64,000 bases of DNA, from NCBI GenBank assembly GCA_903828675.1, contig CAIKND010000001.1:1-64000 (forward strand), in the 5' to 3' direction. Below the pieces are notes generated by a model that searched no databases, was not told where the DNA came from, and saw nothing but the letters and a program-made list of their open reading frames with translations. The stretch is from an uncultured Acidobacteriaceae bacterium. Its GTDB lineage: Bacteria > Acidobacteriota > Terriglobia > Terriglobales > Acidobacteriaceae. Shown here piece after piece: positions 7,605 through 56,482 of this stretch (the stretch's first letter is position 1; every line of letters begins with the position of its first letter). The position numbers and the translations under genes were made by a program.

Positions 7605-8987
7605 CTATTTGGAATATTTGCCTACCTTGTAACCGAGATCGCTCCTTGAGAGGCCGAGTCGTCTCGCGGCTTCAGCTTGTACACCCGCAGATGAGTCGAT
7701 CGCTCGCTCAACCACAATCTTCTCGAGTGTGGCCAGCAACTCCCGAATATCCAACTGCTCCGGAAGTTGCGCTGCGAACTCTTCTATAGCCGACGAGAAA
7801 CTAAGTGACTTGGGCACCGCCGCACCAGCCTGGAGTGGGAAGTCCTCAGGTTGCAGTTCCGCTTGCCGCCCTAGAATCAGCGCCCGCTCAAGCAGGTTCG
7901 CCAACTCTCTTACGTTTCCCGGGAACGGGTAGCTGTTTAACCTCTCAAGCGCATCTCGGCTCACCGGCTTGCTCTGTACTTTCATCTCACCAGCGATCTT
8001 GGAGGTTAGCATCCGGCAGAGTTCGCCGATGTCCTCCCTTCGCTCGCGCAGGGGAGGAATCGAAATTGGAACTACGGCCAGCCGATAGAAGAGATCCTCG
8101 CGAAACTGTCCACTTTGAAATCGTTCCTGGAGGTCGCGGTGGGTAGCGGCGAGAACTCGCACATCCACTTTCCTAGGCACCGTTGAACCGACGCGCTGAA
8201 TTTCTCCAGTCGAGAGCACTCTCAAGAGCTTTGCTTGTGCGGCTGGAGACATCTCCGCCACCTCATCAAGGAAGAGTGTGCCCTCATGCGCAGCTTCAAA
8301 AAGTCCGCCTCTTGCTTTGTCGGCTCCGGTGAAGGCCCCCCGCTCGTGCCCAAACAACTCGCTTTCCAACAGCGACTCGGTCATTGCAGCGCAATTGATT
8401 GCAATGAACGGCCGATGTGACCTGAGTCCATTACGGTGAATCGCGCGGGCGACAAGTTCCTTTCCTGTTCCGGTTTCTCCAGTGATAAGCACCGTTGAAT
8501 TTGTGCCTGCTACGCGAGTAATCAGTTCGCGTACCTGGCGGATGCCATCGCTACTTCCGACGATCTCATCGGTGCCTTCCAGCTTCCGCACCTCAGTCCG
8601 CAGGACTGCATTCTCGCGGAGAAGAATCGTATGCTCACACGCGCGCCGAATGGTCGCTCTCATCACGTCAAGGTCAAACGGCTTGGTAAGAAAATCAAAC
8701 GCCCCGTGGCGCATGCTCTCTACTGCAAGTTCCACTGTACCGACGGCCGTAAGGAAGACGACCGAGGTTGTGGGGTTGGAGTCCCGAACTTCTCGAAGAA
8801 CATCCAAACCTGATCCGTCATGCATCTTTTGATCGGTGATGACGGCGTCGAAGTCCTCGTTCGATAAGAGTTCCTTCGCCTCCGAAGTGCCAGACGCTTC
8901 AAATGTAAGATGGGAGTCAAGACGTAGATTCGCTCTGAGAATCCGTCTCATGTTAGGCTCGTCATCGACGATTAATAACTTACCCAT
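7605..8987 (-). CDS. Sigma-54-dependent response regulator, NtrC family
   Basis: A 460-residue transcription activator. Domains: receiver (LLIVDDEPNMRR at the N-terminus, phosphoacceptor Asp in the DAVITDQKMHDG stretch), AAA+ domain with Walker A GETGTGKE, the sigma-54-contacting GAFTGA loop and Walker B-like GTLFLDEV, then a Fis-type HTH (EAARRLGLSRSDLGYK) at the extreme C-terminus. The start at 8987 is preferred because GGGAG lies 7 bases upstream and the receiver begins at once. Its start overlaps the end of the kinase gene by 8 bases, so the two are translationally coupled. Divergent from the multicopper operon, which is a natural candidate target. Confidence 0.93.
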   Translation of the reverse strand: MGKLLIVDDEPNMRRILRANLRLDSHLTFEASGTSEAKELLSNEDFDAVITDQKMHDGSGLDVLREVRDSNPTTSVVFLTAVGTVELAVESMRHGAFDFLTKPFDLDVMRATIRRACEHTILLRENAVLRTEVRKLEGTDEIVGSSDGIRQVRELITRVAGTNSTVLITGETGTGKELVARAIHRNGLRSHRPFIAINCAAMTESLLESELFGHERGAFTGADKARGGLFEAAHEGTLFLDEVAEMSPAAQAKLLRVLSTGEIQRVGSTVPRKVDVRVLAATHRDLQERFQSGQFREDLFYRLAVVPISIPPLRERREDIGELCRMLTSKIAGEMKVQSKPVSRDALERLNSYPFPGNVRELANLLERALILGRQAELQPEDFPLQAGAAVPKSLSFSSAIEEFAAQLPEQLDIRELLATLEKIVVERAIDSSAGVQAEAARRLGLSRSDLGYKVGKYSK

Positions 8988-10299
8988 CTTCAGCTCCCGC
9001 TGAACCGTCATTCTTCGCATCCCTTGCCAGCGTCATAGAAAATGTAACACAGCCATTTCGGTTATCGCTCAACCACAGATCCCCACCATGCGCCTTGGCC
9101 GCACTTCTGGCAATGGCAAGGCCAAGGCCAGTCCCGCTGGCCTTGGTCGTAAAGAATGGCTCGAACATTTGAGCTCGAGTTGAATCAGGTATAGGAAAGC
9201 CGGAGTTTTGAATGTCGATACGAGCAATATCTTCTTCGAGCGATGCCCCAAGCCGGATCGTTCCGCCTTCAGGAGTAGCGTCGATGGCGTTGATCACCAG
9301 GTTGAGAAGAGCTGCCTCAACCAGTGGACTGTCGATGTCCACTGAAATCTCCCTCGACAACTCAAGTGCAATCGTAATGCCGCGGTTGGCTGCGTGGGCT
9401 TTACTGACAGCCGCAACATAGGAAAGGAGATCAAAGAGGAGAGTCGGCAAGCGCACAGGCAAGGACGGCCTGGCGAATGTAAGAAAGTCAGACGTAAGCA
9501 ACTCGAGCCTTTTTGATTCCTGCTCTGCGATTGCATACATCTCCTTTCGCTCCCCCTCATCCAACTCCGTCTTCTTTGCGGTCAAAAGGGAACTTGAGAT
9601 CATCGAAACCGGATTGCGAATCTCGTGTGCGATTCCACTTGCCAGTCGTCCAACCGCTGCAAGCTTCTCCTCGCTAATCAAGCGTTCGCGCGTGTCTTCC
9701 AGAACTTTCATGCTGGCAGATAACTTCAGCTGATTTGCCTTTAGCTGGTTAACCAGAAACCAAACGAGCAAGCCCATTTGAAGGTATACGACTGAAAGCA
9801 TCCACCCTTCGAAGTATTGCGTGATTCGAGCCGGCGGGTGTAGGCCAAAATAGTGCCAAAGCCACAGAAAAATCATGCCATCGGATACGGTAATTGTCAG
9901 AATTGTCGGACCCAGGCCAAAAGTATAAGCGCACTGCAAAATCGGGATCGCGAGAAGCACAAAATAGGGGTTCTCGTCCCGATTGGTCACGTAAGTTACA
10001 AGTGCCGTCAGTATAAAAGTCAGAGTAATAGTGATAGACGTCTGAATTCTGGAGGCCTGCTGTGTGAGGCGCGATCCCCTCGCATGGAGCCAAAGTAACT
10101 CAGATATTGTTAAAGCCAAAGCCAAGCCGAGCAATGTCACAACAGGTATAGGTGGCTTGCCCACAATTGATGCGAAGATCGTGTGCAACAAGAGCAGCAT
10201 TGCAACCACGAGAAAAGTAATGATGGAGAATACGGACTTGATTCTACTGAGTCCTTCTATTGGAATGGACTCCTCGGATGGCTCCAAACGTGTTCTCAT
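8980..10299 (-). CDS. Membrane sensor histidine kinase, NtrB-like partner
   Basis: A 439-residue kinase with about six predicted membrane segments in the first 190 residues (for example VFSIITFLVVAMLLLL and PVVTLLGLALALTISELL) and no large periplasmic domain. HisKA follows with the H-box SGIAHEIRNPVSMI (His225) and then HATPase with the G2-type motif GTGLGLAIARSAAKAHGG. The start is supported by GGGGAAG close upstream. It would phosphorylate the overlapping NtrC-type regulator. The multi-span sensor suggests detection of a membrane-associated or hydrophobic signal; the ligand is unknown. Confidence 0.9.
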   Translation of the reverse strand: MRTRLEPSEESIPIEGLSRIKSVFSIITFLVVAMLLLLHTIFASIVGKPPIPVVTLLGLALALTISELLWLHARGSRLTQQASRIQTSITITLTFILTALVTYVTNRDENPYFVLLAIPILQCAYTFGLGPTILTITVSDGMIFLWLWHYFGLHPPARITQYFEGWMLSVVYLQMGLLVWFLVNQLKANQLKLSASMKVLEDTRERLISEEKLAAVGRLASGIAHEIRNPVSMISSSLLTAKKTELDEGERKEMYAIAEQESKRLELLTSDFLTFARPSLPVRLPTLLFDLLSYVAAVSKAHAANRGITIALELSREISVDIDSPLVEAALLNLVINAIDATPEGGTIRLGASLEEDIARIDIQNSGFPIPDSTRAQMFEPFFTTKASGTGLGLAIARSAAKAHGGDLWLSDNRNGCVTFSMTLARDAKNDGSAGAEDG

Positions 10300-11318: not shown

Positions 11319-12914
11319 ATGTCGAGCAGGGGCGCAGGAGCCATTCTGTCAACATTGGCGCTAGTCTGCGTTGCGGCGCTGCCCGCAACGGGACAATCAT
11401 TCAGGGTCCAATGTCCAACAAGCACGCTAACTCACCCAGTTGCGGCCAGTAACAACTCGGAGCCGGTGTACAACGGCCCGACGGTGCAAAGCCATGGCGC
11501 AGGTGGATACCTGACTCCAAGCACAAATATTAATGGCGCCATCAAATGCCAGCAGATTTCCGGCGGTGATGGCTATGCGACCATGGGCGATGGTACTCAA
11601 ACCTATTTGTTCTCCTTCGGCCCACTTTCAGGGCTCGCCGACATCGCGAGCGGTCTGCCAGGTACGCAGTATCCCAGTGGATTCAATGCGGTGGCGCCGG
11701 TAACACTCGTGGCAGGCGATCCAGCAACAACAGTTGGCCCTGCGGCCGGATCGCCGGGCACGTATAACTTGGGAGCATTTACATATAACGGAGCTGTAGG
11801 TCTGACACCGGATCTGGATGGCATCGCCTCAGGGGCCTGCGCTTCTCCATGTCTGAATGGACACGTTGATCCACGCCCAATCATGGATGTAGGTGTGATG
11901 AACGGCAATATCCCAGCCCCTTTGATGGCCATCGACGAGGATGACGAATACTTCCTTACCTTGACCAACGTTGGTATGATCATGCGGCCTGATCTGTTCG
12001 AGCAGCACACGGTTCACTTCCATGGTTATCCCAACGCATCGTCGTTCTATGACGGCGTTCCTGACGCTTCAGTTGCAATCAATATTGGTGGCAGCTTCAC
12101 GTATTACTATCTCGCGCCGGATGCGGGCACATACTTCTATCACTGTCACATCACGCCCCCAGAGCACCTTCAAATGGGCATGGTTGGGCAAATTTATGTT
12201 CGTCCCCGCCAGAATCGGGTCCCGACCGGGGCTGACCTGTTTGCATCCCTCCAGAAACAGCAAGGCGACCCCCGCACTGCATGTAACACCTCGGACCTTG
12301 TTTGCAGCAATCCGCTCCCCGCTGTGAATACCGGTGCGGTTGGTGGTGGCAAGTACGCCTATAACGACGGCGACGGCACGACAGCATACGACGTCGAGTA
12401 TCCCCTCCAAATCCACGGGTTCGATCCCAACTTCCATTTTGTCGGCATGACCTTCAACCCTGAAGGATTCGCGGACATGAAGGATAAGTACTTCCTGCTG
12501 AATGGGCGAAGCTATCCCGACACTGTAACTCCGGGGCCATTGGAGACAATGTCGGCGGATGGTCAGGTGCACTTCTCCCAGCCGCTGCCTTCCATCATCA
12601 ACATAACTGCTGGTCAGAAGGCGCTGCTTCGCATTTCGGACTTGGATGTAACCGAGTACCAGACGCTGGCTTCGCTGGGTATCCCAATGAAGGTTATTGG
12701 ATACAACGCCAAGCTGCTGCGAGATCAGGCCGGAAACAACATGTACTACACCACTAACTCGATCACCTTGGCAGGTGGCGAGTCGCTGGATGTGATTCTT
12801 GATAGTACGGGTGTCCCCAGTGGAACCTACTACCTCTACACCCCCAATCTTGACCACCTGTCAAATGACGCTGAGAACTTCGGCGGACTGATGACAGAAG
12901 TCCGCGTGAATTAG
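11319..12914 (+). CDS. Secreted multicopper-oxidase-like protein 1, carries the type-1 copper motif
   Basis: A 531-residue exported cupredoxin-fold protein. The start at 11319 has GAGGAGG a few bases upstream and opens directly into a signal peptide (ILSTLALVCVAALPATGQ). The His cluster HTVHFHG (His230, 233, 235) and the motif YHCHITPPEHLQMGM (H275-C276-H277, H283, M286) match motifs 3 and 4 of multicopper oxidases: type-1 Cys/His/Met ligands plus half of the trinuclear cluster. No second pair of H-x-H motifs is seen in the chain, so it is not a complete oxidase alone. The last 100 residues look like another cupredoxin domain without ligands (GTYYLYTPNLDHL). It lies 7 bases before the second copper protein in the same operon. 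Confidence 0.8.
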   Translation: MSSRGAGAILSTLALVCVAALPATGQSFRVQCPTSTLTHPVAASNNSEPVYNGPTVQSHGAGGYLTPSTNINGAIKCQQISGGDGYATMGDGTQTYLFSFGPLSGLADIASGLPGTQYPSGFNAVAPVTLVAGDPATTVGPAAGSPGTYNLGAFTYNGAVGLTPDLDGIASGACASPCLNGHVDPRPIMDVGVMNGNIPAPLMAIDEDDEYFLTLTNVGMIMRPDLFEQHTVHFHGYPNASSFYDGVPDASVAINIGGSFTYYYLAPDAGTYFYHCHITPPEHLQMGMVGQIYVRPRQNRVPTGADLFASLQKQQGDPRTACNTSDLVCSNPLPAVNTGAVGGGKYAYNDGDGTTAYDVEYPLQIHGFDPNFHFVGMTFNPEGFADMKDKYFLLNGRSYPDTVTPGPLETMSADGQVHFSQPLPSIINITAGQKALLRISDLDVTEYQTLASLGIPMKVIGYNAKLLRDQAGNNMYYTTNSITLAGGESLDVILDSTGVPSGTYYLYTPNLDHLSNDAENFGGLMTEVRVN

Positions 12915-12921
12915 GAGAGCA

Positions 12922-14526
12922 ATGATGAGGCCGATGATTATGAAAAGCGCGTTCTTGAAGATAAGACTGCTTCTGGCCGTTATAGTTGCAGTCGCGGCGC
13001 TCGCGGCGACGGCTCATGCTGCGGCTCCGGGCATAACTGGTACCGGAACCTCCGGTACTTTCAACCTGACGGCGCAAACTGCCTATCTGACCCAGCCGGA
13101 TGGACAATCCATCTATTCGTGGGGATATGGTTGCAGCACTGCGCCAGCTTCGACGAACTACGCGCCGGCGGCGATCACCACCGGGTTCTGCAGCACAATG
13201 CAGGTTCCTGGTCCAACCCTGATCGTGACTGAAGGACAAACTGTCACGGTGAATCTTGCCAACAGCTTGCCTGCGTCGGCCGGTAATACATCGATATTGT
13301 TCCCAGGGTTCCAGGTAACTACTACGGGAGGTGTATCTGGCCTGCTGACTCAGGAGGCCGCGCCTGGCGGTTCGGTAACATATTCATTTGTTGCTTCGAC
13401 GCCGGGGACCCACTCCTATTACAGCGGAACTCAAGGGGACCTCCAGATTGAGATGGGCCTTTACGGGGCCGTTATTGTGCTCCCGGCAAATGTGCCTACG
13501 GCATGCAGTAGTGGACTGGCTGCAAGCAATCTTGCCGCCGAAGCCCACTGGGGTGAAAAGGACTTCAGGCTTGCTTCTGCCGCCTTTGATCATGCCAAAA
13601 CTTGCTACGACCGCGAGTATCTCTTCCAGTTCAGCGAGATCGATCCGAGAATCCACCTCCTGGCCCAGGAGCAGGTGGCCACGGCAGGAAACTGCACTGC
13701 CGGGGCTCCCGGATGCAGCCTTCAGGTTCCCACGGAGCCTTACCATCCAGCCTACTTCATGATCAATGGCCGCTCGATGCCGGATGACATGGACCCCAAC
13801 TATGCCTACCAGTATCCGCACCAACCCTACAACGGCAACCCGCACCTGCATCCCGGCGAAACCGTGCTCTTGCGCATTATCGGCCAGGGCAGATGGCAGC
13901 ATCCGTTCCACGAACATGCTAACCATGTTCGCATCCTGGCTCGAGACGGAAACCTGATTCTCAGCCAATCCGATTCGACATTGCTCGCAGGCCCGGCGCT
14001 CTTCACGACCACAACCACTCCCGGCGTCACGATGGACGGACTCTTCTACTACACGGGCAGAGGCTTGAACTGGGACATGTATGGTCACAATCCCAAATCG
14101 GGGGATCCGACCGCCACATTGGGCTGCACTCCGGATGCCAACGGCTACAACACCGGTGATCCAACGGCGATCAATTACTACGAGTGGTGCCAGGACCACA
14201 ACAAGCCGCTTCAGACGTCCCCGTTTGGCGATGTCGCGAGTGACGGTCCAGCGACTCTTCCCGATCCGAACATCCTCACAAACGGTGCATGGTACGGCGG
14301 AAGCCCTTACCTTGGGCCGGATGCAACCGGGCGCGCTGTCGGCGCAACGGGAGTGACGCCTCCATCGGGCACGATCGCGAACTCACCAGGCGGTGAGGCG
14401 GGCTTTGCGTTCATGTGGCACTCGCACAATGAGCGTGAGATCACAACCAACAATGCTTTCCCAGGCGGAATGATGATGATGATGTTGGTTGATTCCCGGG
14501 AATTCCAGATTGACGAATCCAACTAG
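12922..14526 (+). CDS. Secreted multicopper-oxidase-like protein 2, His motifs without the type-1 Cys
   Basis: A 534-residue exported cupredoxin protein with signal peptide (LLLAVIVAVAALAATAHAA). TTAGGAG sits just upstream, 7 bases after the previous stop. The first domain has the architecture of a multicopper oxidase N-terminus, but its ligand motifs are lost: the usual HWHG is LFPGF and the usual YHSH is HSYYSG. Later domains keep HPFHEHANH (His327, 330, 332, 335) and WHSHNERE (His500, His502), followed by the Met-rich GGMMMMML. Cys is replaced by Ser in the H-x-H, so no type-1 centre is expected. It offers exactly the two H-x-H motifs that protein 1 lacks. Confidence 0.78.
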   Translation: MMRPMIMKSAFLKIRLLLAVIVAVAALAATAHAAAPGITGTGTSGTFNLTAQTAYLTQPDGQSIYSWGYGCSTAPASTNYAPAAITTGFCSTMQVPGPTLIVTEGQTVTVNLANSLPASAGNTSILFPGFQVTTTGGVSGLLTQEAAPGGSVTYSFVASTPGTHSYYSGTQGDLQIEMGLYGAVIVLPANVPTACSSGLAASNLAAEAHWGEKDFRLASAAFDHAKTCYDREYLFQFSEIDPRIHLLAQEQVATAGNCTAGAPGCSLQVPTEPYHPAYFMINGRSMPDDMDPNYAYQYPHQPYNGNPHLHPGETVLLRIIGQGRWQHPFHEHANHVRILARDGNLILSQSDSTLLAGPALFTTTTTPGVTMDGLFYYTGRGLNWDMYGHNPKSGDPTATLGCTPDANGYNTGDPTAINYYEWCQDHNKPLQTSPFGDVASDGPATLPDPNILTNGAWYGGSPYLGPDATGRAVGATGVTPPSGTIANSPGGEAGFAFMWHSHNEREITTNNAFPGGMMMMMLVDSREFQIDESN

Positions 14527-14540
14527 CCAGGAGAACAGAA

Positions 14541-17500
14541 ATGCGAATCAACTCTCTCAAAGCGATTACGAAGACTGCGGCACGGGGAGCGGCTGTTCTC
14601 CTTCTAGGAGCGGGTATGGCTGCTGCTCAGCAGCAGGTCAACCTGTCCGCGGGGCGAACTAATGTAACTTTGCCTGACGGGTCGCTAGTGCCGATGTGGG
14701 GATACTCCTGCGGCGCAGCGATCACGGGCTCCACTGCGACATGCGCGGCGCTTAATCCGACTGCGCCAGCCGCGGCGCCCTTTGTCACGCCTCCAACTCC
14801 CGGCTGGTCGCCAGTCGTGATTACCGTCCCCGCCAGTGCGGGTGGCTTGACCGTCAACATGGTCAATAACCTTCCAGTGCCCACATCAATGGTGATCGTG
14901 GGCCAACTGGGTGCGGGTCTAGGAAGCGCCAGGACGACTGACTCGAGCCCAAATCACTCCGCTCAAGGGACCACGTGGCCAATCGCTGGCTCCGGCCCCA
15001 CCTTCACGCCGCCTGCGCAGCCCGACCGCGTCAGATCACTAGCCCAGGAAGTGGCATCGGGCGGTGGCACCTCGACGCTCACTTGGTCTTCGCTCAAGCC
15101 TGGTACATATCTGATTGAGTCCGGCACGCACCCCTCCATCCAGGCGCCGATGGGCTTGTACGGCATTCTGGTTGTTACGAGTGCGCCTGTTGCCGGCACG
15201 CCGGCAACGCCGGGCTGCGCCTATCCGGGCGCGACGGCCAACAGCTGCGCTGTTCCGTATAGCGCAGAAGTTCCCCTGCTCTTCAGTGAAATCGACAAGG
15301 TGCAAAACACGGCCGCCGATACCGCCGTCAGCACCACAGGCTTCTCTGAAACTACTGTATGGACGGGCGGGCCTAACGGCTGCGGCGCGCACTATACTTG
15401 CTATCCGCCAACCGTGAACTACTCCCCCACCTACTACCTCATAAACGGCGTTGCGTTCAACAGAACTGCTCCTGCTGCTTCAGTGTTCTCGACGCTGCCA
15501 GCTTCAAGCGTCACCGGAAACGTGCTGGTTCGTCTCGTGAACGCCGGACTGCGCATGCACGTCCCCGCAATTGTCGGGTCGCAAACGGGAACGGCAGCCA
15601 AGTCGGGCCTCACGCTGATTGCCGAAGACGGAAACGTGCTTCCCGGCATTCCCCGTATACAGAACGAAGTATTTCTTGCCGCCGGCAAGACATACGACGT
15701 GATGATCAATGCGCCCGCCGCCGGTGCTGCGGCCTTGCCTATCTATGACCGCGAACTGAGCCTGTCTGGCGGGGCAATCAACCGCGATGCCGGTATGTTG
15801 GCTTACATTGGAGTCAACGGCGCTCTGCTTACAACAGGCGGAGGAGTAGGGGTCGCGGTAGCACGCCCGGATACCTACACCGCCCTGGTTGCGGGCCAGA
15901 CGCTGACCGTTGCGGATCCAGCCAGGGGTTTGATCGCCAACGACACAAATGTTCTCGGCGTTGCTCTCCTTACGCAGGCAACAAGCGGAACCGTAGCGCT
16001 CAATACGAACGGAACCTTCTCGTATGTTCCGGGCGGAAGCGCTACATCTGACTCGTTCGCCTATTGCGCGAATGGCACTGTGACCGCGGGAGTCTGCTCC
16101 TCCGGCATCACTGCCACGGTCACACTGAGTCCGACGAACATCGCCGACAGCGGCATCGTTTGTACTGCCGGTACGTTCAATTCGAATGTGGCAACATTCT
16201 TGGCTGTCAAAACTCCCGGCGTCCTTGCTAATTGCAAAGACGGCGCGAATCTGCCTCTCACCGTCAACACACCGTCGGTCACTGCGACGGGAATGACAGT
16301 CCTTCCGAATGTCAACGGTGGATTCACCGCCATCGCACCCGCCGCTGGTACCTACACCTTCTCATTCCAGGCAAAGAATTCGCTTGGAACGGTCAGCGCA
16401 CTCACAACCGCGACGGTCGTCTTCCCACCAGGGAGCAACCTCCAGGTGACGGTCCTCGATGGTGCGGATAAGAAGACGACGATCACCGACTACCGTTGGA
16501 TCGTCGAAGAAGATCGCACTTTCTTCGTCAATCCGATTTGCGCGGCTGCACAGGGCCAGGCGACACCGCCTGCCGGATGTGCGACGACAGGCCCAGTGGT
16601 GAATTTCGGCACAAACTTCCACACCAGCTTTATGCCGCTGGTTGCAACCGGCTGCACAGGGCCTCTATCCTGCGCAGATGATCAGACGGTTGGTGGTGCG
16701 CAGGTGACGCCTGCTCCGGCTCGGAGTTACCCGAGCGACGTCGCGCTCGACCCCACCAAGCGGTACTACATCTCTGTTCTTCCAGGCGATGCGGCCCAGC
16801 CGTTTATCGCTGGATATACGGGTGCGCCCGATTGCTCGGCTACGGGCGTGGTAGCGGGAAGCTGCGGCCACGGCATGGGCGGCGCTCCCATTCCAACTGT
16901 TCTCAATGGCACGCACAGCGGGCAAGCCATAACTGTGCTGACCGAGCCAAGTCCCTATCCGCCGGCTACCTTATCGGCGTTCGTGTTCGAGGATGACTAT
17001 CCTCTGAACGGCGAGCACGATTCGGGCGGCGGCATTGACGTGCTCTCACCCAATGAAGCCGGTCTTGGTGGGTTCCAGATCACGTTGCAAGATAACGCAG
17101 GCGGCACCGGCGATTCCACTGGCGCTCCCACATACGACATGTTCAACATGCCGTTGAGCAACAGCCTGGCTGGCACCATCGATCCGACTACAAAGTTGGA
17201 TGCATGCCCAATTGCTACACAGGCTACGGCGGCCTCCCAAGCAGGAGACAGCTCTCAAAACGGCATTGCCGGCATGATTATCACCTGCCCCAAGTACGAG
17301 TCGGACGGCAAGACGCTGTCTCCTCTCGCTGGTCAGGTGGTAGTCAAGAACCTCTACCCAGGCCGTTACGGTGTGATTGCCAACCCCGGCGCGGACCGCA
17401 TCGGGCGCGGAGAAGAGTGGGTTCAAACCAACACTCTCGATGGGCAGAAGGCGCACGATTCGTTCATGCGGATTGGCGAGCCGGGCTACTTCCAGGAGTT

Positions 17501-20500
17501 TGGACCTGCCGGTTACCACGTCACAATCGGCTTCGCCAACCCCAAGATCATCAACGATCGGGGCAAGGCCTTGTGCAGCGCGGCTGGCGCGGATTGTGCG
17601 CATGAGGTCAAGGGCCACGTCACCACGGCACGCATGAGCCGTACTCCTGATGAGCGGCTTTACGGCAGCGGCAACCACGATGCCTATGCGTTTACCCAGT
17701 GCTACGTCAGCATCGGCGATCCTGATGGTGCGGATTTCGGCTTCTCGAAATGCGATGACCAGGGAAACTTTGACTTCCCGTCGGGAACCGTTCCCGCCGG
17801 CAACTGGAAGGTCACAACCTTCGACCAGTGGAATGACCAGGTAGTGGACGGCATTACGACCGCGGTCGGAATGTGCAACGCAGGCACGACCACAAACTGC
17901 AAAGCCGTGGTGGACATGGGCGAAGTCGCTGTGCACCAGTGGCAGGCCAACATCTACACCCGCACATTCCTCGACACCGATTACTCCGGCGTCTCGAATG
18001 ACCAAAAGCCTGGACTGCCGCTCTCTGCAACCAACATTCGCTTCCGCGATGGCAGCTACTCGAACTTCAACAACACCGACCTGAACGGCTATGCCGGCTT
18101 CAATGAGGTGTTTCCGCTGTTCAACTGGTATGTGATTGAATCGGACTCCACGCGCTACAAGAACACAGGCACGCACGTGGTTTACGATACGGGTGGTCCT
18201 GACGACGGCACCTCTCCGAACGGCGTGGCGTGCAATTCCTCAAGCACCACATCAAAGGGTTGCGGAAGCTCCTCCATCGCCGCAAACCTGGCAAACACCT
18301 ACGAAGCCAATCCGCTTCCTGCGGCTCTGTCGGTGCCCGGCGCTGTGTATTGCAGCGATGCCGATTGCACCGGTGCCTCCATTGCCAATGGGCCGGTCCC
18401 CAGTTCCACAACCAACCACTCCTCCGGCCGCATTGACCCGGGCTGGGTTGACTCTTACGGATGGCAGGGATACTCCGGCCAGAACAACTTCCTGGAATTC
18501 GGCAAAAAGCCGTTTGCCCAGGGTGAAAACGGCGGCATCCGCGGCCACGTCGTCTACGCATCAACACGGCCTTTCGATGACCCCCAGCACTTGCTGCAGT
18601 TGAGCTGGGAGCCATTGATTCCGCATGTGAGGATCAACCTCTACAGGGAAGACATCGCGGCCGACGGCATTACGAAGACTCTCGCGCTGGTCGATCACAC
18701 TGAGACCACCAGCTTCGATGACTGGGCGCAGGGATTCCGTTCGGATGGCGTTCCGAATATGAACTGCCCCGGCCAGGGCACCGATACCACCACGGTGGCC
18801 GATCCCTACTTCTGGTACACTCTGCAGAATCAGCCGCAGTGGCTCGACGTGTACAACTCGCTACACGGCGGTCCAGCGCCAACACCGCTGCCAAATGGCT
18901 CTCAGTTCAAGTGCTACGACGGCATGCACAACTGGAACCAGCTACAGCCCGCGCCCTATGACGGCATGTACAAGTTCCCCAGCGTCACATCCATTAACCC
19001 CACAACGGGCAAGCCGGGCGGTACCAATTGCACCGGCTGCACCACTAACCCTGATACGACCGATCCGTTCCGCGTAGGCACCCCCATGCTGCCGGATGGA
19101 AAGTATGTCGTCGAGGTTGTGGTGCCGCCAGGCTATGAGCTGGTGAAGGAAGAAGACAAGAACATCCTCATCGGCGACAACTTTATCGCCCCTGTCACGC
19201 AGCAGTTCGGCGGGTTGGGCAATATCTTCATCCTTCCCGACCAGGCTGAGATTAACGCCTACTACAACGCCAACAATGCTCAGAACGCAACTGATAATCT
19301 GGGTCGGATCCCGGATCTTCCCAGCCACGAATCAGATACCGGTTCTGACGAATCCTACTGGCCCTGTGTGGGCGAGACGCGTGTGGTGCCTGACTTCATC
19401 AGTCTTTTCCCAGGCTCGGGTGAAGTGGCGCCCTTTGCCGGTGCCAGCCGTCCGCTTTGCGATCGCAAGCTTGTCTCTCTTGACGATCAAACATCGGTTC
19501 TTACCAAGTTCTATCTCTTCACACAAACACACGCTGCCGCACATTTCTCCGGGCAGATCACGGATGACTTCGCCGCGGAATTCGATCCTTTCTCGCCGGC
19601 CTTCGGTGAGAAGTTCGCACCCGCATACCTGCCCGTCGCCATTAAGGATTGGGCCGGTAATGAAGTCAATCGCGTATACGCCGATCAATGGGGCACCTAC
19701 AACGGCCTCAACTACTCCACGTGGGAAGTAAACCCGCCAAACCCAACCGGTTATGGCCCCACCATGATGGTCACTTGCATGAATGACGCCGGTCCGATCC
19801 CTGACCCGAACAATCTGGGCCAGGTAATCACCGATCCTCTCTTCCAGAGCGGCTACAGCGACTTCTGCTATCAGTTGCCCTTCATGCCAGGACAGACCGG
19901 CTACTTCGATACGCCTGTCGTGCCAACCTCCGCTTTTGCTGGAGACTACAACACCCCGGACTGCGCCTATCCTGACGCAACCCCCGCGGTCAGCGAAGTG
20001 GACGGCGACGGAGTTGGACCTTGGGTGAGTGCTCAAAACCACCAGATCACCATCACGGCCCTCGGCAACCAGAATGTCGACAACTACAATTACTCCGGTC
20101 CCTCGGCAACAGCAGCACCCTACAACCAGCAGAGGATTCAGCGCCACTACGGGTTCCTCGCTCGTTGCACCACGCCGAACGGAAGCGCAACCTGCAGCAC
20201 CGCATCCAGTGTCACCATCGGCGGCGTCGCAGCTACGATTGTCAATTGGTCTGACACATCGATCACGGTTAACGTGCCTGCGGGTGTGCCCGCTTGCGCA
20301 ATCCAGCAGCAAGCGCAGTACGGTGGCTCCAACGCAAACTGCGGACAATTGGTAATCACTGCCGGCAACGGGAAGCAATCCATCGATGCCGTTACGGTCA
20401 CCGTTGGCGGCAAGGCCCCCACGCACGTCGCAGCTTCGCAGACTGTCCAGTCCGCGATTGATGCGGCCAAGCCTGGTGACCTCCTCATCATTGACCCAAC

Positions 20501-23500
20501 CTGCAAAGGCACTGCTGGAGCCGTGTCTTGCGAAGTCAGTTCCACGAACTCTGCCAAAAACCCCGCCGTGACCGGCACCACAAACGCCGCTCACTCCGAG
20601 ATGCTGCTGTTGTGGAAGCCGGTACGTCTGCAGGGAGTTGGAGCGGTGTCAAGCGTCATTGATGCCAGTCCGCACCCCGCCGGCAAGCTGGACCCCTGGC
20701 GTCGGCAGGTTGTATGCCTCTTCGGCCTGGCGCTGAATGGCACGCCGATCTCCACCACGAATCCGTACGATTCGTCGAACGCCTTCACTTGCAATGCCAA
20801 CATGAAGTTCTCAGTCGATCGCTTGCCTTTGGAGGCAACCGTAGGCTGGGATGCCACTCTCAACGGGAACCTGGCGGAACAACTGATCGAGCCCACAATC
20901 ATGGGAGCCTATGAAGGTGCGGGGATCACCGTACTCGGCAAAGGCGTGAAGTTCCCAGCCGGCACCGATCCATTTGCCTCCGATGTCTTCCCGACAGGAA
21001 CCTTGCTGCTGACGGCCAGTGATTGCGGCGGCACCAGAACCACACCCGCAAACCCGTACCCGAGCAACTTCTTGTGCAATCCGTCCTCGATTGATGGCCT
21101 GACGGTCAAGAACAGCTCACAGGGCGGTGGCGGCATCCTCGTTCACGGCTGGAGCCACAGTCTCCAAATCGCCAACAACCGGGTGCTGAACAATCAGGGC
21201 ACTCTGTCCGGTGGCATCACCATCGGCCAGGGCGAGCACCCCGATGCCTTCCTCGTCGGCGGAGCTGCAGTAGCGACGGTTCCAGGCTCGTGCATCATCA
21301 ACACCGGCAATGCACCAACAAACATGGCTCTGCCGTTCTGCTTCGACAGAGACGTCAATGTCCATAACAACCAGGTCATTCAGAATTCCTCACTCGGCGA
21401 CGAACTCTTCTCGTCAACCCCTGCGGGCGCCGGTGGCGTTACCTTCTGCAATGGCAGCGACTACTACAAGTTCAACTACAACTGGGTTTGCGGCAACATG
21501 AGCACCGGTGACGGCGCTGGTGTTGCACACATCGGGTACAGCTACGATGGCGACATCGAGCACAACTCGATCCTCTTCAACCAGAGTACGAACCCGACGA
21601 TCACCACCAACGGCGGCGGTCTCCTCATCATGGGTGCGCCGGATCAGGATCCTCCCTGCGCCCTCACGAACGACAATGATTGCCTCTCAGCTCCGGGGAC
21701 CATTACACCAAGCGATGGCACAGGCCCCGGCTTGGTCATCAACGCAAACCTGATTCTGGGCAATGCTGCTGACAGCGGTAGCGGCGGCGGCTTGAGATTG
21801 CAACACATCAACGGTAATGATGTGCTCAATTTCCCCAAGGGCAACGCAAATGCTGCGTGGCCGTCCATTGCTGGTCACCCCTCACAGCCATCTTTCCAGA
21901 CGAAGACCCCCTGGAATGCGGTGCAGGTAACCAACAACATCATCGCCAATAACGTCGCCGGTTGGGACGGAGGCGGTGTGTCACTGCAAGACGCGCTGGC
22001 GGCGGACCTGATCAATAACACCATCGTCTCCAACAACTCCACAGCCTCTTCCGGTGTGCTGTTCCAATCCTTGTTCGCGCCGTTGGCCAGCACCCCAGGG
22101 GTCAACTGCACTGCAAACAACGGGTCAAACTCCTGCCCGCAGGTCGCAGGCTTGGTTAGCGTGACAAACAGTGCGGTACTGGTGGCCAACATCAGCCAAC
22201 TCACTGGAGGCACCGCCTCTGTCACCTGCCCGACCAACCATGGCACAGCTGGGTCGTGCACAAAGTACTCGGTTCCGGTACTTTACAACGACATCATCTG
22301 GAAGAACCGCTCCTTCATGATCGGCGTGGGCGGCTTGGCCAGCGGACTGACAAACCAAAACAACCAGGTAACAATGTATAACTCGCCCTTCGGTGCAGCG
22401 GCACCCACCGCAGCAGCGAGCCAGACATCCACTGGGGCTTGCAACGATACAAACGCCAGCTATTGGGATATCGGCGTCCGCGGCGACTTGGCTCCGGGTA
22501 ACCACTCGGCAGGCACGTTGTCTCCCATCTACTCCGTGCTCACCAATAACGCCGGTCTGTCTGAAATCGGTGGCGGCTCCAACGATCTGCTGGCTCCGAG
22601 TGCGGTGGTCAACAGCATGTACTGCGACGGCGCGCGAGTGCCGGTCGAAGCTGTAACCTCGCTCGCTTTGAAGTATCCCGGCTGGCAGGTGCCTCCCGGA
22701 ACGAACGAGTCCAACGGGCTTCCGGCGCCGCCGTTCACTCTGAGCCCTGCCGCAACCGTAGACGAGGGCAACAACTGGGTTAACCTCCGCTGGGGTCCCC
22801 TGTCTACGAATGTGCTGAACGCATCAGGAACTCCGGTCTTCACCTTTAACCCGTCGCTGGTAGGCACTTCGCCGGCAGTCAACTACGTTCCCCTTAACTC
22901 CGCGCAGGGAACTGCGGCTCCAAGCACCGACTTCTATGGCAATCCGCGCAAACAAGCCGGAAACCCCGTAGACGTTGGAGCAATCGAGTATCAGGCGCCT
23001 ACCTTCGCTGTTCTCAGTGTCTCGCCCACGAGTCTGGCTTTTGGCAGCATCGTGACCGGCAACACCAGCACCGCGCAAACCCTCACCCTATCCAACGCAG
23101 GCGGAGCTACCGCGACAGGCATTACCGTGGTCGTCACCGCTCCATTCTCCAGGCCAACTGGCGCTGCGGGTGGAACTTGTAACCCAGCCTTGCCGGCAAG
23201 TTCAACCTGCACCATCAACGTGGTGTTCTCGCCAACCTCTGCGGTGGCCTCAACAGGAACAGTCACAATTACCGGAAGCGTAGCTGTTACTGGCTCGCCA
23301 GTTGCTCTGACCGGCACCGGCCTGGCAGCGACACACACTGCAACCGTTACCCCCACAACACTCGCCTTCGGAGTCTGGCCAACTGGCAACAACAGCGCCG
23401 CGAAGACCCTGACGGTGACCAACACTGGCAACTCCGCACTCGCTGGTGGCACCTTCACCTTCGGCGGCGGGACTCCTCAACCCTTCTCCCGCCCAGGAGG

Positions 23501-24038
23501 AGCAGCCGGTGGAACCTGCACAGCTACCTTGGCGGTTGGCGCTTCGTGCACAGTCAACGTGGTGTTCAGGCCGACTACAGCCGTGCTCTACCAAAGAACA
23601 CTCGCTGTGGCCTTCACGGGCACAACGGTCACGGGTTCCACGGTAACACTCACCGGCACCGGAGGAGCAGCACCGGCAGTCACGATTCTGCCTAATCCGC
23701 TGCTGATCACGTTGCCAACGGGTGCAACCAACATAACGGGAACAGGTACGGTTACCTTCACCAACACTGCGGCCGTCGGAGGTTCGAATGTCACGGTGTC
23801 CAACATCGCCGCAACAGGCGGGTCAATTCTGACGTATTTCTTCAACGTCGGAACGCTCGCCGGACCCGACAACTGCACCGGAGCAATCATCGCGCCGGGA
23901 GCATCGTGCACGGTAACCGTCAGATTCACCAACACTGGTTCCGCAAGAGGTACAACTCGTACCGGAACCTTGACGTTTACGGATAGCGGAAATGCAAGCC
24001 CGCAGTCCATAGTGCTGAATGGCTTTGCAACTCCTTAG
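14541..24038 (+). CDS. Giant secreted multidomain protein: ligand-less cupredoxin, SdrD_B-like, IPT, beta-helix and ASH repeats
   Basis: A 3165-residue exported protein, third gene of the copper operon (14 bases after the second; AGGAG upstream). In order: signal peptide (1-30); multicopper-like cupredoxin domains (to about 430) that keep the fold pattern QAPMGLYGILVV but no H-x-H ligands; a cadherin-like Ig domain (about 443-533, LIANDTN); SdrD_B/carboxypeptidase-like modules from about 811 (FVFEDDYPLNGEHDSGGG) and 1139 (FLDTDYSGVSNDQKPG); an IPT/TIG-like domain (about 1865-1960); a right-handed beta-helix (about 1964-2550, repeats such as VTNNIIANNVAGWDGGG); a choice-of-anchor Q-like tail (VDVGAIEY, about 2810); three choice-of-anchor D/ASH repeats (2823-3165). 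No sorting signal is visible. It is probably the surface scaffold for the two copper proteins. Function is inferred from context only. Confidence 0.85.
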   Translation: MRINSLKAITKTAARGAAVLLLGAGMAAAQQQVNLSAGRTNVTLPDGSLVPMWGYSCGAAITGSTATCAALNPTAPAAAPFVTPPTPGWSPVVITVPASAGGLTVNMVNNLPVPTSMVIVGQLGAGLGSARTTDSSPNHSAQGTTWPIAGSGPTFTPPAQPDRVRSLAQEVASGGGTSTLTWSSLKPGTYLIESGTHPSIQAPMGLYGILVVTSAPVAGTPATPGCAYPGATANSCAVPYSAEVPLLFSEIDKVQNTAADTAVSTTGFSETTVWTGGPNGCGAHYTCYPPTVNYSPTYYLINGVAFNRTAPAASVFSTLPASSVTGNVLVRLVNAGLRMHVPAIVGSQTGTAAKSGLTLIAEDGNVLPGIPRIQNEVFLAAGKTYDVMINAPAAGAAALPIYDRELSLSGGAINRDAGMLAYIGVNGALLTTGGGVGVAVARPDTYTALVAGQTLTVADPARGLIANDTNVLGVALLTQATSGTVALNTNGTFSYVPGGSATSDSFAYCANGTVTAGVCSSGITATVTLSPTNIADSGIVCTAGTFNSNVATFLAVKTPGVLANCKDGANLPLTVNTPSVTATGMTVLPNVNGGFTAIAPAAGTYTFSFQAKNSLGTVSALTTATVVFPPGSNLQVTVLDGADKKTTITDYRWIVEEDRTFFVNPICAAAQGQATPPAGCATTGPVVNFGTNFHTSFMPLVATGCTGPLSCADDQTVGGAQVTPAPARSYPSDVALDPTKRYYISVLPGDAAQPFIAGYTGAPDCSATGVVAGSCGHGMGGAPIPTVLNGTHSGQAITVLTEPSPYPPATLSAFVFEDDYPLNGEHDSGGGIDVLSPNEAGLGGFQITLQDNAGGTGDSTGAPTYDMFNMPLSNSLAGTIDPTTKLDACPIATQATAASQAGDSSQNGIAGMIITCPKYESDGKTLSPLAGQVVVKNLYPGRYGVIANPGADRIGRGEEWVQTNTLDGQKAHDSFMRIGEPGYFQEFGPAGYHVTIGFANPKIINDRGKALCSAAGADCAHEVKGHVTTARMSRTPDERLYGSGNHDAYAFTQCYVSIGDPDGADFGFSKCDDQGNFDFPSGTVPAGNWKVTTFDQWNDQVVDGITTAVGMCNAGTTTNCKAVVDMGEVAVHQWQANIYTRTFLDTDYSGVSNDQKPGLPLSATNIRFRDGSYSNFNNTDLNGYAGFNEVFPLFNWYVIESDSTRYKNTGTHVVYDTGGPDDGTSPNGVACNSSSTTSKGCGSSSIAANLANTYEANPLPAALSVPGAVYCSDADCTGASIANGPVPSSTTNHSSGRIDPGWVDSYGWQGYSGQNNFLEFGKKPFAQGENGGIRGHVVYASTRPFDDPQHLLQLSWEPLIPHVRINLYREDIAADGITKTLALVDHTETTSFDDWAQGFRSDGVPNMNCPGQGTDTTTVADPYFWYTLQNQPQWLDVYNSLHGGPAPTPLPNGSQFKCYDGMHNWNQLQPAPYDGMYKFPSVTSINPTTGKPGGTNCTGCTTNPDTTDPFRVGTPMLPDGKYVVEVVVPPGYELVKEEDKNILIGDNFIAPVTQQFGGLGNIFILPDQAEINAYYNANNAQNATDNLGRIPDLPSHESDTGSDESYWPCVGETRVVPDFISLFPGSGEVAPFAGASRPLCDRKLVSLDDQTSVLTKFYLFTQTHAAAHFSGQITDDFAAEFDPFSPAFGEKFAPAYLPVAIKDWAGNEVNRVYADQWGTYNGLNYSTWEVNPPNPTGYGPTMMVTCMNDAGPIPDPNNLGQVITDPLFQSGYSDFCYQLPFMPGQTGYFDTPVVPTSAFAGDYNTPDCAYPDATPAVSEVDGDGVGPWVSAQNHQITITALGNQNVDNYNYSGPSATAAPYNQQRIQRHYGFLARCTTPNGSATCSTASSVTIGGVAATIVNWSDTSITVNVPAGVPACAIQQQAQYGGSNANCGQLVITAGNGKQSIDAVTVTVGGKAPTHVAASQTVQSAIDAAKPGDLLIIDPTCKGTAGAVSCEVSSTNSAKNPAVTGTTNAAHSEMLLLWKPVRLQGVGAVSSVIDASPHPAGKLDPWRRQVVCLFGLALNGTPISTTNPYDSSNAFTCNANMKFSVDRLPLEATVGWDATLNGNLAEQLIEPTIMGAYEGAGITVLGKGVKFPAGTDPFASDVFPTGTLLLTASDCGGTRTTPANPYPSNFLCNPSSIDGLTVKNSSQGGGGILVHGWSHSLQIANNRVLNNQGTLSGGITIGQGEHPDAFLVGGAAVATVPGSCIINTGNAPTNMALPFCFDRDVNVHNNQVIQNSSLGDELFSSTPAGAGGVTFCNGSDYYKFNYNWVCGNMSTGDGAGVAHIGYSYDGDIEHNSILFNQSTNPTITTNGGGLLIMGAPDQDPPCALTNDNDCLSAPGTITPSDGTGPGLVINANLILGNAADSGSGGGLRLQHINGNDVLNFPKGNANAAWPSIAGHPSQPSFQTKTPWNAVQVTNNIIANNVAGWDGGGVSLQDALAADLINNTIVSNNSTASSGVLFQSLFAPLASTPGVNCTANNGSNSCPQVAGLVSVTNSAVLVANISQLTGGTASVTCPTNHGTAGSCTKYSVPVLYNDIIWKNRSFMIGVGGLASGLTNQNNQVTMYNSPFGAAAPTAAASQTSTGACNDTNASYWDIGVRGDLAPGNHSAGTLSPIYSVLTNNAGLSEIGGGSNDLLAPSAVVNSMYCDGARVPVEAVTSLALKYPGWQVPPGTNESNGLPAPPFTLSPAATVDEGNNWVNLRWGPLSTNVLNASGTPVFTFNPSLVGTSPAVNYVPLNSAQGTAAPSTDFYGNPRKQAGNPVDVGAIEYQAPTFAVLSVSPTSLAFGSIVTGNTSTAQTLTLSNAGGATATGITVVVTAPFSRPTGAAGGTCNPALPASSTCTINVVFSPTSAVASTGTVTITGSVAVTGSPVALTGTGLAATHTATVTPTTLAFGVWPTGNNSAAKTLTVTNTGNSALAGGTFTFGGGTPQPFSRPGGAAGGTCTATLAVGASCTVNVVFRPTTAVLYQRTLAVAFTGTTVTGSTVTLTGTGGAAPAVTILPNPLLITLPTGATNITGTGTVTFTNTAAVGGSNVTVSNIAATGGSILTYFFNVGTLAGPDNCTGAIIAPGASCTVTVRFTNTGSARGTTRTGTLTFTDSGNASPQSIVLNGFATP

Positions 24039-24194: not shown

Positions 24195-24734
24195 ATGTTT
24201 AATCATCAAGCTTCAGTCAGGAGCACTTTCCGGATCGCGGGGCTCATTGTCGGCAGCTTCTTGGCTCCGGTGCTCATCGCGCAAGCCGCAACTCCCAGCC
24301 AGCCCCCGGCGGACTCCAAGGCAACATCCTCCTCAGTTCCTGTCCACTCTGCATCACCAACCCGCTATCAGCCCGATCCGTTTGCGGGGCGGGCAGGCAG
24401 GTATTACAAAGTCGTTTGGGGCGTCGATTCGCTGAGTGTCAAGGCTGCTGAGTCGGGTGAACTGATTCGATTCTCTTACCGGGTTTTGGACTCGCAAAGA
24501 GCCAAAGTTCTAAATGACAAGAGGGTCGAGGCCTTTCTAAACTCCCCGGCTCGACATATCCAACTGGTCATCCCGTCGTTGGAGAAGGTTGGGCAACTGC
24601 GCCAGAGCAATACCCCCCAGTCCGGCACTTCCTATTGGATGGCATTCTCTAACCCGCACAGAGCGGTCAAGCGCGGAGATCGCGTCAACGTCGTAATCGG
24701 CCAGTTTCATGCGGACGGTCTGGTTGTTGAATAA
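24195..24734 (+). CDS. Small secreted protein of unknown function, end of the copper operon
   Basis: A 179-residue protein with a signal peptide (hydrophobic core IAGLIVGSFLAPVLIAQA), then a Ser/Pro-rich linker and a compact domain beginning near YYKVVWGVDSLSVKAAESG and ending in VNVVIGQFHADGLVVE. AGAGGTGAGAG lies just upstream of the ATG. I do not recognise a named family. There are no Cys residues, no heme motif and no His cluster. Its place 156 bases after the giant gene and its export suggest an accessory part of the copper-protein complex. Confidence 0.6.
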   Translation: MFNHQASVRSTFRIAGLIVGSFLAPVLIAQAATPSQPPADSKATSSSVPVHSASPTRYQPDPFAGRAGRYYKVVWGVDSLSVKAAESGELIRFSYRVLDSQRAKVLNDKRVEAFLNSPARHIQLVIPSLEKVGQLRQSNTPQSGTSYWMAFSNPHRAVKRGDRVNVVIGQFHADGLVVE

Positions 24735-24853
24735 CACCCGCATTGCTCAAAACTGAAAGCTGAAAAGCAGCCTTGTGGTCTTGATGCCAACCAAATTAGC
24801 CAGGTTTGATTCCAGATGGGTCAACCTTGAAATCAGTAAGCGAGGATCGACAG

Positions 24854-25741
24854 ATGATTCGAAAGACTATGCTTGCCGTTGCTCTCATGTGCGCTGTTAC
24901 TTCGGCTTCGGCTGCCGATAATAGCCACTCCAACAAGACACTTTCTGCCTCTGAGATTGTAGAAAAGAACATTCAGGCGCGTGGCGGTCTAAGTGCCTGG
25001 CATGCCGTGCAGGCCTTGTCGTTTGAAGGGAAACTGGGCGCAGGTGGCAACCGTCGGCCGACACTGCCCCTCCCTATGCCTGATAAGCATTTGCCAAGCC
25101 TAACATCAGCCCAGCGACTGCCGGAAGAGGCGCAACTGCCTTTCAAGATGCTCATGCACAGGCCGCGGCAGGTCCGCTTTGAGATTCAGTTCAAAGGCCA
25201 GACGGCGTTCCAGGTATTTGATGGCGCGCACGGTTGGAAGATGAGGCCTTATCTAAACCGTCAAGACGTGGAGCCGTTCACAGCGGACGAGTTGAAGGCC
25301 GCGTCATTGCAGCCCGACCTCGATGGCCCCTTGGTCGACTACGCGGCCAAGGGAACTCGTGTTGAACTCGGCGGCCAGGAGAAAGTCGAGAGCCGCGACA
25401 CCTACAAGCTCACGCTCACCACCAAGGGTGGTGAGAAAACTCACGTGTGGGTCGACGCTCAGACCTTCCTCGAGACCAAAGTAGAGGGTCAACCCAGGCG
25501 CCTCGATGGAAAGCTCCATCCAGTAGAGGTCTTTTATCGGGACTACCGTCAGGTAAGCGGCCTCCAGATTCCTTTCATTCTGGAGACGAGAGTCCTTCCG
25601 AATTCGGACGCGACGGCAAGAGAAAAGGAAGTCCCCCTTCAAGCCGAGAAGATCGTCGTCGAGAAGGTCGTAGTCAACCCAAAGCTGGAAACTGCGATGT
25701 TCTCGAAGCCTGAGATTCAGACCGCATCGAGTCAACGCTAA
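24854..25741 (+). CDS. Secreted LolA/RseB-like fold protein
   Basis: About 295 residues. The start at 24854 is preferred because GAGGA lies 7-8 bases upstream and the signal peptide (MIRKTMLAVALMCAVTSASAAD) begins there. The pattern SASEIVEKNIQARGGLSAWHAVQALSFEG followed by paired strands (KMRPYLNRQDVEP, VESRDTYKLTLTTKGG, THVWVDAQTFLETKVEG) resembles periplasmic lipoprotein-carrier or outer-membrane sorting proteins with a LolA-type half-barrel. Co-directional with the copper operon 119 bases downstream, so a role in delivering or anchoring its products is possible. Family assignment is by pattern only. Confidence 0.6.
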   Translation: MIRKTMLAVALMCAVTSASAADNSHSNKTLSASEIVEKNIQARGGLSAWHAVQALSFEGKLGAGGNRRPTLPLPMPDKHLPSLTSAQRLPEEAQLPFKMLMHRPRQVRFEIQFKGQTAFQVFDGAHGWKMRPYLNRQDVEPFTADELKAASLQPDLDGPLVDYAAKGTRVELGGQEKVESRDTYKLTLTTKGGEKTHVWVDAQTFLETKVEGQPRRLDGKLHPVEVFYRDYRQVSGLQIPFILETRVLPNSDATAREKEVPLQAEKIVVEKVVVNPKLETAMFSKPEIQTASSQR

Positions 25742-27366: not shown

Positions 27367-27527
27367 TTCGCCTCCAAAGCACCGAAGTCATTGACGATAT
27401 GAGTCAATGAGTATCGCTGATGCCTGTCACATAAACTTGGAATCGTGCATTCCTTCATTAAGACTCATGGTCAGGTATTTTTAGAAGAGTGTGGAAAGTT
27501 CAACTCAAAACCAATTCAGTCGAGAGT

Positions 27528-56308: not shown

Positions 56309-56482
56309 GTTATCTCCCAGCGCTCGAGGATTCTGCAAGAAAGCATACACCTGTTGCACGACCTCGGCGAAATCACAGGTTAGGTTTCCGCAATTCGGCT
56401 CTTTGTCTGGAATTCTGAAGTCGCGCCAACTGCTGGGGAAGCGCATCCACTTCCGCCTAACGCGAAACAAGCTTGGCAGAAT

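Follow-up and report, generated by a model that had tools for sequence, protein, structure and literature searches.

Two adjacent genes hold complementary halves of a multicopper oxidase active site, probably within a heterotrimer of paralogous subunits

In multicopper oxidases (MCOs), electrons pass from a substrate to a type-1 copper and then, via a cysteine, to a copper cluster at which O2 is reduced to water. A 64,000-nucleotide stretch of DNA from an uncultured Acidobacteriaceae bacterium (assembly GCA_903828675.1, contig CAIKND010000001.1, positions 1 to 64,000 of the forward strand; hereafter, the window) carries two adjacent genes, P1 and P2, which raise the question of whether a single MCO site can be divided between two polypeptides. 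Here we report that P1 and P2 contain conserved, complementary half-sites, that they are inherited together with a third, blank paralogue (P3N), and that a diverged two-gene relative shows the same split. From these sequences it is very likely that P1 and P2 share one trinuclear cluster in an exported heteromeric MCO.

The genes and motifs that make up the divided site, and the third paralogue downstream, are listed below; loci are designated by L numbers and genomes by G numbers.

11319 to 12914, forward strand: P1, an open reading frame (ORF) of 531 amino acids (Pfam Cu-oxidase_3, 4.2e-15; Cu-oxidase_2, 1e-11).
12006 to 12026, forward strand: P1 motif HTVHFHG, with H230 assigned to the type-1 site and H233 and H235 to the trinuclear site by motif rule.
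12141 to 12182, forward strand: P1 motif HCHITPPEHLQMGM, with H275 and H277 (trinuclear) and C276, H283 and M288 (type-1).
12922 to 14526, forward strand: P2, an ORF of 534 amino acids (Pfam Cu-oxidase_3, 7.5e-16; Cu-oxidase_2, 1.1e-4).
13900 to 13926, forward strand: P2 motif HPFHEHANH, with H330 and H332 (trinuclear).
14416 to 14427, forward strand: P2 motif WHSH, with H500 and H502 (trinuclear) and Ser501 at the cysteine position.
14541 to 15840 (3′ boundary approximate), forward strand: P3N, the N-terminal ~430 amino acids of P3, a third two-domain MCO paralogue without a copper site.

P1 comprises two cupredoxin domains, of which domain 1 has a type-1 copper site and half of a trinuclear site and domain 2 is blank; P2 also comprises two, of which domain 1 is blank and domain 2 has the other half of the trinuclear site. 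Judged by eye, the N-terminal hydrophobic segment of each protein reads as signal-like. As a profile, P1 has its best Protein Data Bank (PDB) match in 3g5w (8.3e-23), and its HTVHFHG and HCHITPPEHLQMGM motifs align with HTIHWHG and HCHVNVNEHVTMRGM of that protein (YHCH..EH..M.GM in both); the P1 residues concerned are H230, H233, H235, H275, C276, H277, H283, M286 and M288. By the spacing in the motif rule, we take M288 to be a more likely axial type-1 ligand than M286. The P2 motif HPFHEHANH aligns with HAIHTHGH of 3g5w, and P2 H327 occupies a position where 3g5w also has a histidine. In total, P1 and P2 each have two canonical HxH motifs and P3N has none, and type-1 ligands in the N-terminal domain are found in P1, not in P2 or P3N. 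The ORFs, coordinates, 7-base gap and residue numbers given in a first-pass annotation of the window were all correct on re-reading.

We assessed conservation in 80 loci, taken from at least 511 confirmed in a contig scan of genomes. Frames below 150 bits were excluded, including a P3N fragment in L053, leaving 95 rows for P1 (17 alignment rows and 78 frames, to which 77 of the 80 loci contributed), 97 for P2 (17 alignment rows and 80 frames) and 94 for P3N. In P1, H275, C276, H277, H283 and M288 are each present in 94 of the 95 rows, M286 in 93, H233 in 92 and H230 and H235 in 91; apart from one serine, considered below, the misses are gaps, which fall in contig-edge fragments (L062, L074 and L082) or in the broken P1 frame of L059. 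In P2, H327, H330, H332, H426, H500, S501, H502, E504 and E506 are invariant (97/97), and H389 is present in 95 rows. The first-pass annotation had noted that the P2 WHSH motif lacks a cysteine and that P2 has lost the motifs of its own N-terminal domain, and both statements hold across the P2 rows: Ser501 stands in all of them, and the equivalent sites of domain 1 (L126, P128, Y167 and G169) have a histidine only at Y167, in 3 of the 97. At the equivalent sites of P1 domain 2 (A451, L453, Y507 and P509, from an alignment read by eye), histidine never occurs in the 95 rows. As a control, all 16 ordinary MCO frames scored from other genomes of the phylum (loci L017–L032) have four HxH motifs in one chain, as do the intact two-domain relatives in L139 and L152. 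The complementary half-sites, which the first-pass annotation had read from a single genome, are due neither to chance nor to a sequencing error that hides a motif.

P3 is a protein of 3165 amino acids that starts at 14541 and resembles P1 and P2 at its N terminus. Single-sequence searches of Pfam and NCBIfam found no MCO domain in P3; as a profile, P3N matches 3g5w best among PDB entries (1.3e-17), in one stretch spanning both domains. Profile–profile alignments with hhalign join P1 to P2 (6.2e-28), P2 to P3N (7.5e-51) and P1 to P3N (8e-22), running from domain 1 into domain 2. For all three profiles, 3g5w is the best solved match and 2zwn the second, with P1 and P2 aligned to 3g5w in pieces of both domains; lower-ranked matches include monomeric three-domain laccases. 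Judged by these profiles, P1, P2 and P3N are paralogues of one two-domain MCO. P3N is blank: no HxH occurs in 84 of the 94 rows or in the window copy, and the eight canonical positions have 4 stray histidines over all rows. According to passages of PMC13151041, two-domain MCOs are trimers in which the cluster takes ligands from two protomers; we assign 3g5w to type C of the classification in that source from the position of its type-1 motif.

An AlphaFold2 model of P2, predicted from the P2 sequences of 54 of the 80 loci and the window (pLDDT (predicted local distance difference test) 64.6, pTM (predicted template modelling score) 0.71; usable for the fold only), matches 3gdc with a Z-score of 19.5 over residues 1–492, covering both domains, and 3g5w with 18.1 over 255 residues. 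The 50 matches listed are all two-domain MCOs or nitrite reductases (Z 17.6–19.5). Further conserved histidines and glutamates of P2 (H308/H310, H389, H426, E504 and E506, at 13843–14439) may mark a second metal site or a substrate site.

The three paralogues are inherited together. We searched the same 396 genomes of the phylum with all three profiles and scored at most four candidates in each: P1 (E ≤ 1e-150) was found in 15, P2 (≤ 1e-170) in 14 and P3N (≤ 1e-118) in 14. The extra P1 genome is G136, where P1 is cut by the contig end; a short piece of P1 likewise stands at the end of a contig in G330. Weaker matches (P2 profile: G028, G042 and G238, ~1e-22; P3N profile: G028) are ordinary MCOs or the two-gene relative described below. 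P1, P2 and P3N lie in this order on the same strand in 75 of the 80 loci, counting the L053 P3N fragment and the partial P1 in L062, L074 and L082; P1 is absent from L083, L097 and L100, and P3N from L076 and L080, because the contig ends there. No natural P1–P2 fusion was seen among the 80 loci listed; frames of 1103 and 1109 amino acids around P2 in L038/G231 were rejected as fusions, being overlapping frames.

P3N forms one protein with a large C-terminal region, P3C, in the window and in the closer relatives. Nine distant loci (L040–L048) encode P3N as a gene of its own that follows P2, and have a large P3C-like gene upstream of P1, to which it is fused in L044; L142 (G645) has the same distant layout. 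The scaffold thus changes position while the P1–P2–P3N core stays fixed, which suggests that P1, P2 and P3N function as a unit. The titles of the locus records include Acidobacteria, Paraburkholderia, Burkholderia, Collimonas, Cupriavidus and Pandoraea, and Cupriavidus metallidurans CH34 holds P1, P2 and P3N. The system occurs sporadically: of 349 Pseudomonadota genomes sampled (among them the centre, G396), three gave a P2 match at 1e-20, one of them weak. P2 relatives were not found in a scan of viral contigs. The genome of the window has a second copy, at 78%, and members of the family are as low as 40–48% identical to the window. In AP028202.1, the only one of three plasmid records in which genes are listed, P1, P2 and P3 are annotated as hypothetical proteins.

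A diverged split MCO consisting of two genes, P2′ and P1′, occurs in G238 (L144:7840–9848) and G750 (L151:1163–3117), out of 59 genomes that were searched in the order concerned; a third, weaker match in the same search (G763) is an intact two-domain MCO. P2′ has canonical motifs only in domain 2 (SPMHYHGYH and PLHTHY in L144), and P1′ only in domain 1 (PHSIHLHG and YHCH..LH..GM), with no canonical pair in its domain 2. The genes overlap, the P1′ ATG running into the P2′ stop codon (TGATG in L144, ATGA in L151). The L144 P2′ matches Pfam TAT_signal at 4.7e-4 (20.4 bits, below the cut-off of 22.7) and looks like a protein exported by the twin-arginine translocation (Tat) pathway. P1′ has no signal that can be seen ahead of its first domain, with which the protein begins. 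It is presumably exported in complex with P2′, so that the two would have to assemble beforehand; this presumed route is an independent hint of physical association. A maximum-likelihood tree was built from 39 rows: 9 of the 17 for each family, with P3N cut to its first 400–430 residues, and 6 of the 16 ordinary MCOs. In it, P2′ groups with P2 and P3N (bootstrap/SH-aLRT (Shimodaira–Hasegawa-like approximate likelihood ratio test) 98/95), and P2 groups with P3N (99/94). The tree lends weak support to a single origin of the split, after which the P2 lineage would have duplicated and one copy gone blank.

Together, these observations point to the following enzyme. The ancestor would have been a two-domain MCO forming a homotrimer. 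Domain 1 of P1 would provide the type-1 site (H230, C276, H283 and M288) and four cluster histidines (H233, H235, H275 and H277), and domain 2 of P2 the other four (H330, H332, H500 and H502), so that P1 domain 1 packed against P2 domain 2 would form one full type-1 and trinuclear site, the other two interfaces being blank. P3N probably takes the third ring position, where it would bind no copper and would link the ring to P3C, the giant scaffold. A reductant would deliver electrons to the type-1 copper in P1, from which Cys276 would relay them to the cluster between P1 and P2, where O2 would be reduced to water; an extracellular metal ion or a phenolic compound is our guess at the substrate. 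As a whole, we consider it probable that this is a heterotrimeric MCO of three paralogous two-domain subunits arranged as a pseudo-symmetric ring, that of its three ancestral sites a single one is left, split over two genes, that the blank subunit is fused to a surface scaffold, and that its relatives preserve the steps towards it: an intact single-gene form, a two-gene form with presumed Tat hitch-hiking and the three-gene form.

Several observations weigh against this proposal. At the level of the site, H235 of P1 is a serine in one contig from a metagenome-assembled genome (L089), and the alignment of P2 WHSH with IHDH of 3g5w rests on a weak segment of the hidden Markov model (4.7 bits). 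The first-pass annotation had counted exactly four histidine motifs in P1 and P2; four do stand at canonical positions, but outside them P2 carries one more HxH, H308-L-H310 (in 88 of the 97 rows, missing in 9), and the count should not be taken literally. At the motifs themselves the P2 model is of low quality (block pLDDT 39 for HPFHEH and 26 for HSH), a single-sequence search with P2 ranks 3gdc first rather than 3g5w, and an AlphaFold2 model of a joined P1–P2 chain is worthless (pLDDT 49, pTM 0.37). In the two-gene relatives, both genomes have a non-canonical WHLH in P1′, where domain 2 starts or shortly before it; Pfam found no Tat signal in the L151 P2′ at E 0.01, where KRREFLK was picked out by eye only; and there is no P3N, which is therefore not required for every split enzyme. 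The groupings of P1′ with P1 (66/83) and of the split proteins as one group apart from the intact MCOs (76/93) are not firm. G171 has a lone P3-like frame of 2295 amino acids (L141; G171:C50:81355–82470) that matches P3N only from profile position 125, with ~2.3 kb read upstream of it and the single P2 of that genome on another contig. Finally, the trees are correlated (mirror-tree r 0.94–0.96), as expected of any operon; we do not count this as evidence of contact.

Other arrangements must be weighed against the ring. P1 and P2 might share the cluster as a strict heterodimer, or as a dimer of heterodimers, with P3N acting only as an anchor or chaperone. This is unlikely but compatible with a shared cluster, and it would fit both the two-gene relatives that lack P3N and the missing copper site of P3N itself. 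Against it, the solved structures that best match the three profiles and the 50 listed matches of the P2 model are all two-domain MCOs, trimeric as described above, or nitrite reductases, which are also trimers; moreover, P3N is co-inherited as much as P1 and P2 and keeps both of its domains. A third paralogue is probably needed for the complex, and the 1:1 stoichiometry implied by the first-pass annotation, which missed P3N, is therefore probably not the full one. Its heteromeric oxidase, with a cluster at the P1/P2 interface, exported and co-translated, is nevertheless the best-supported reading, in view of the half-sites, the co-inheritance, the solved relatives and the two-gene pair.

It is also conceivable, if rather improbable, that there is no shared cluster: P1 would carry electrons on its type-1 copper, and P2 would be another kind of metalloprotein with a separate metal, for which its additional conserved residues H426, H389, E504 and E506 could serve; the joined P1–P2 model, too, gave no usable complex. 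Such an arrangement would leave unexplained why P1 keeps both HxH pairs beyond its type-1 ligands while P2 keeps the matching pairs in the opposite domain, and why the pattern recurs in a diverged two-gene pair in which P1′ has no export signal of its own. Sites have been lost in four of the six domains, as might be expected if the proteins were degenerate or regulatory remnants without enzyme activity, like factor V. We regard this as very improbable, since the remaining ligand set is complete and has been kept across members sharing as little as 40–48% identity with the window, and decay would hardly spare just the eight cluster histidines and the type-1 set across two genes.

Among known systems, type C two-domain MCOs (3g5w from Nitrosomonas europaea and 2zwn from a metagenome) share the cupredoxin domains, the HxH motifs and a type-1 site in domain 1 within HCH...H..M. 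However, they hold all motifs in one chain, identical copies of which make several sites, whereas here there are two genes and a blank third. As the four canonical HxH motifs are not in one chain, we do not file P1, P2 and P3N as ordinary type C enzymes. The copper nitrite reductase NirK is similar in its two-domain fold and its type-1 site in domain 1 (P2 model Z ~18). NirK has a single, mononuclear type-2 copper and lacks the second histidine of the HxH and HCH pairs; we rejected a nitrite reductase because H233/H235 and H275/H277 of P1 and H330/H332 and H500/H502 of P2 are all kept, as for a trinuclear cluster. Six-domain MCOs such as ceruloplasmin and MnxG-like proteins likewise have three domain pairs and, according to passages of PMC3600357, keep at most one trinuclear site, located between domains 1 and 6 or 2 and 3 of one polypeptide, with type-1 sites in even domains. 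In the split MCO there are three polypeptides, the type-1 site lies in an odd domain and the cluster is predicted between P1 domain 1 and P2 domain 2; the six-domain assignment was rejected on the three separate genes. The Bacillus Mnx complex (MnxEFG) is also a multi-subunit assembly around an MCO, but from its published description, in passages of PMC5622069, it appears to be unlike the split MCO: MnxE and MnxF are ~12-kDa proteins without known homologues that form a hexamer binding one MnxG, whereas the partners in the split MCO are MCO paralogues sharing a site. Two further papers were set aside as unrelated: PMC5224996, which in its available passages concerns CopA, and PMC12542777, whose available passages do not mention multicopper oxidases. 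Among the open-licence PubMed Central articles listed in our searches, mostly judged by title and the opening of the abstract, there is apparently no description of an MCO with a trinuclear cluster shared by two different polypeptides.

The remaining features of the operon are as follows.

15841 to 24038, forward strand: P3C, the large C-terminal region of P3, with cadherin/immunoglobulin-like and choice-of-anchor regions.
24195 to 24734, forward strand: g4, 179 amino acids, a conserved neighbour mostly right after P3.
24806 to 25741, forward strand: g5, a LolA-like protein adjoining g4 in many loci.

P3C is presumed to be a surface scaffold; its homologue in L121 additionally has cadherin-like, SdrD_B and TIG domains. 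For g4, searches gave no Pfam match and assigned no family; in the ORFs predicted from 99 loci, phmmer gave 55 matches to it, which in L094 and L105 lie away from P3. The protein looks secreted, and a copper chaperone or assembly factor would be one guess. In the same 99 loci g5 has 51 phmmer matches, two in some loci, and matches LolA_like at 4.8e-7 in its L121 homologue and at 0.0027 in the window. Two phage-type integrase-like genes downstream of the operon (26089–28868) suggest the edge of a mobile element, and the genes for a histidine kinase and a sigma-54 response regulator (7605–10299), which run divergently to the operon, are a possible regulator. Elsewhere in the window, 54326–56470 encodes an AAA ATPase with an OLD-like TOPRIM domain, possibly a defence nuclease.

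The split MCO would be a large oxidase family of soil Acidobacteriota and Burkholderiales, for which we found no description in open-licence PubMed Central; it would escape genome surveys that require a single chain to contain all four motifs. If the proposed enzyme is correct, it would represent a natural passage from a homotrimer to an obligate heteromer by complementary loss of sites, with apparent intermediates from which that passage could be reconstructed, and it would be a genetic alternative to the covalent six-domain solution of ceruloplasmin.

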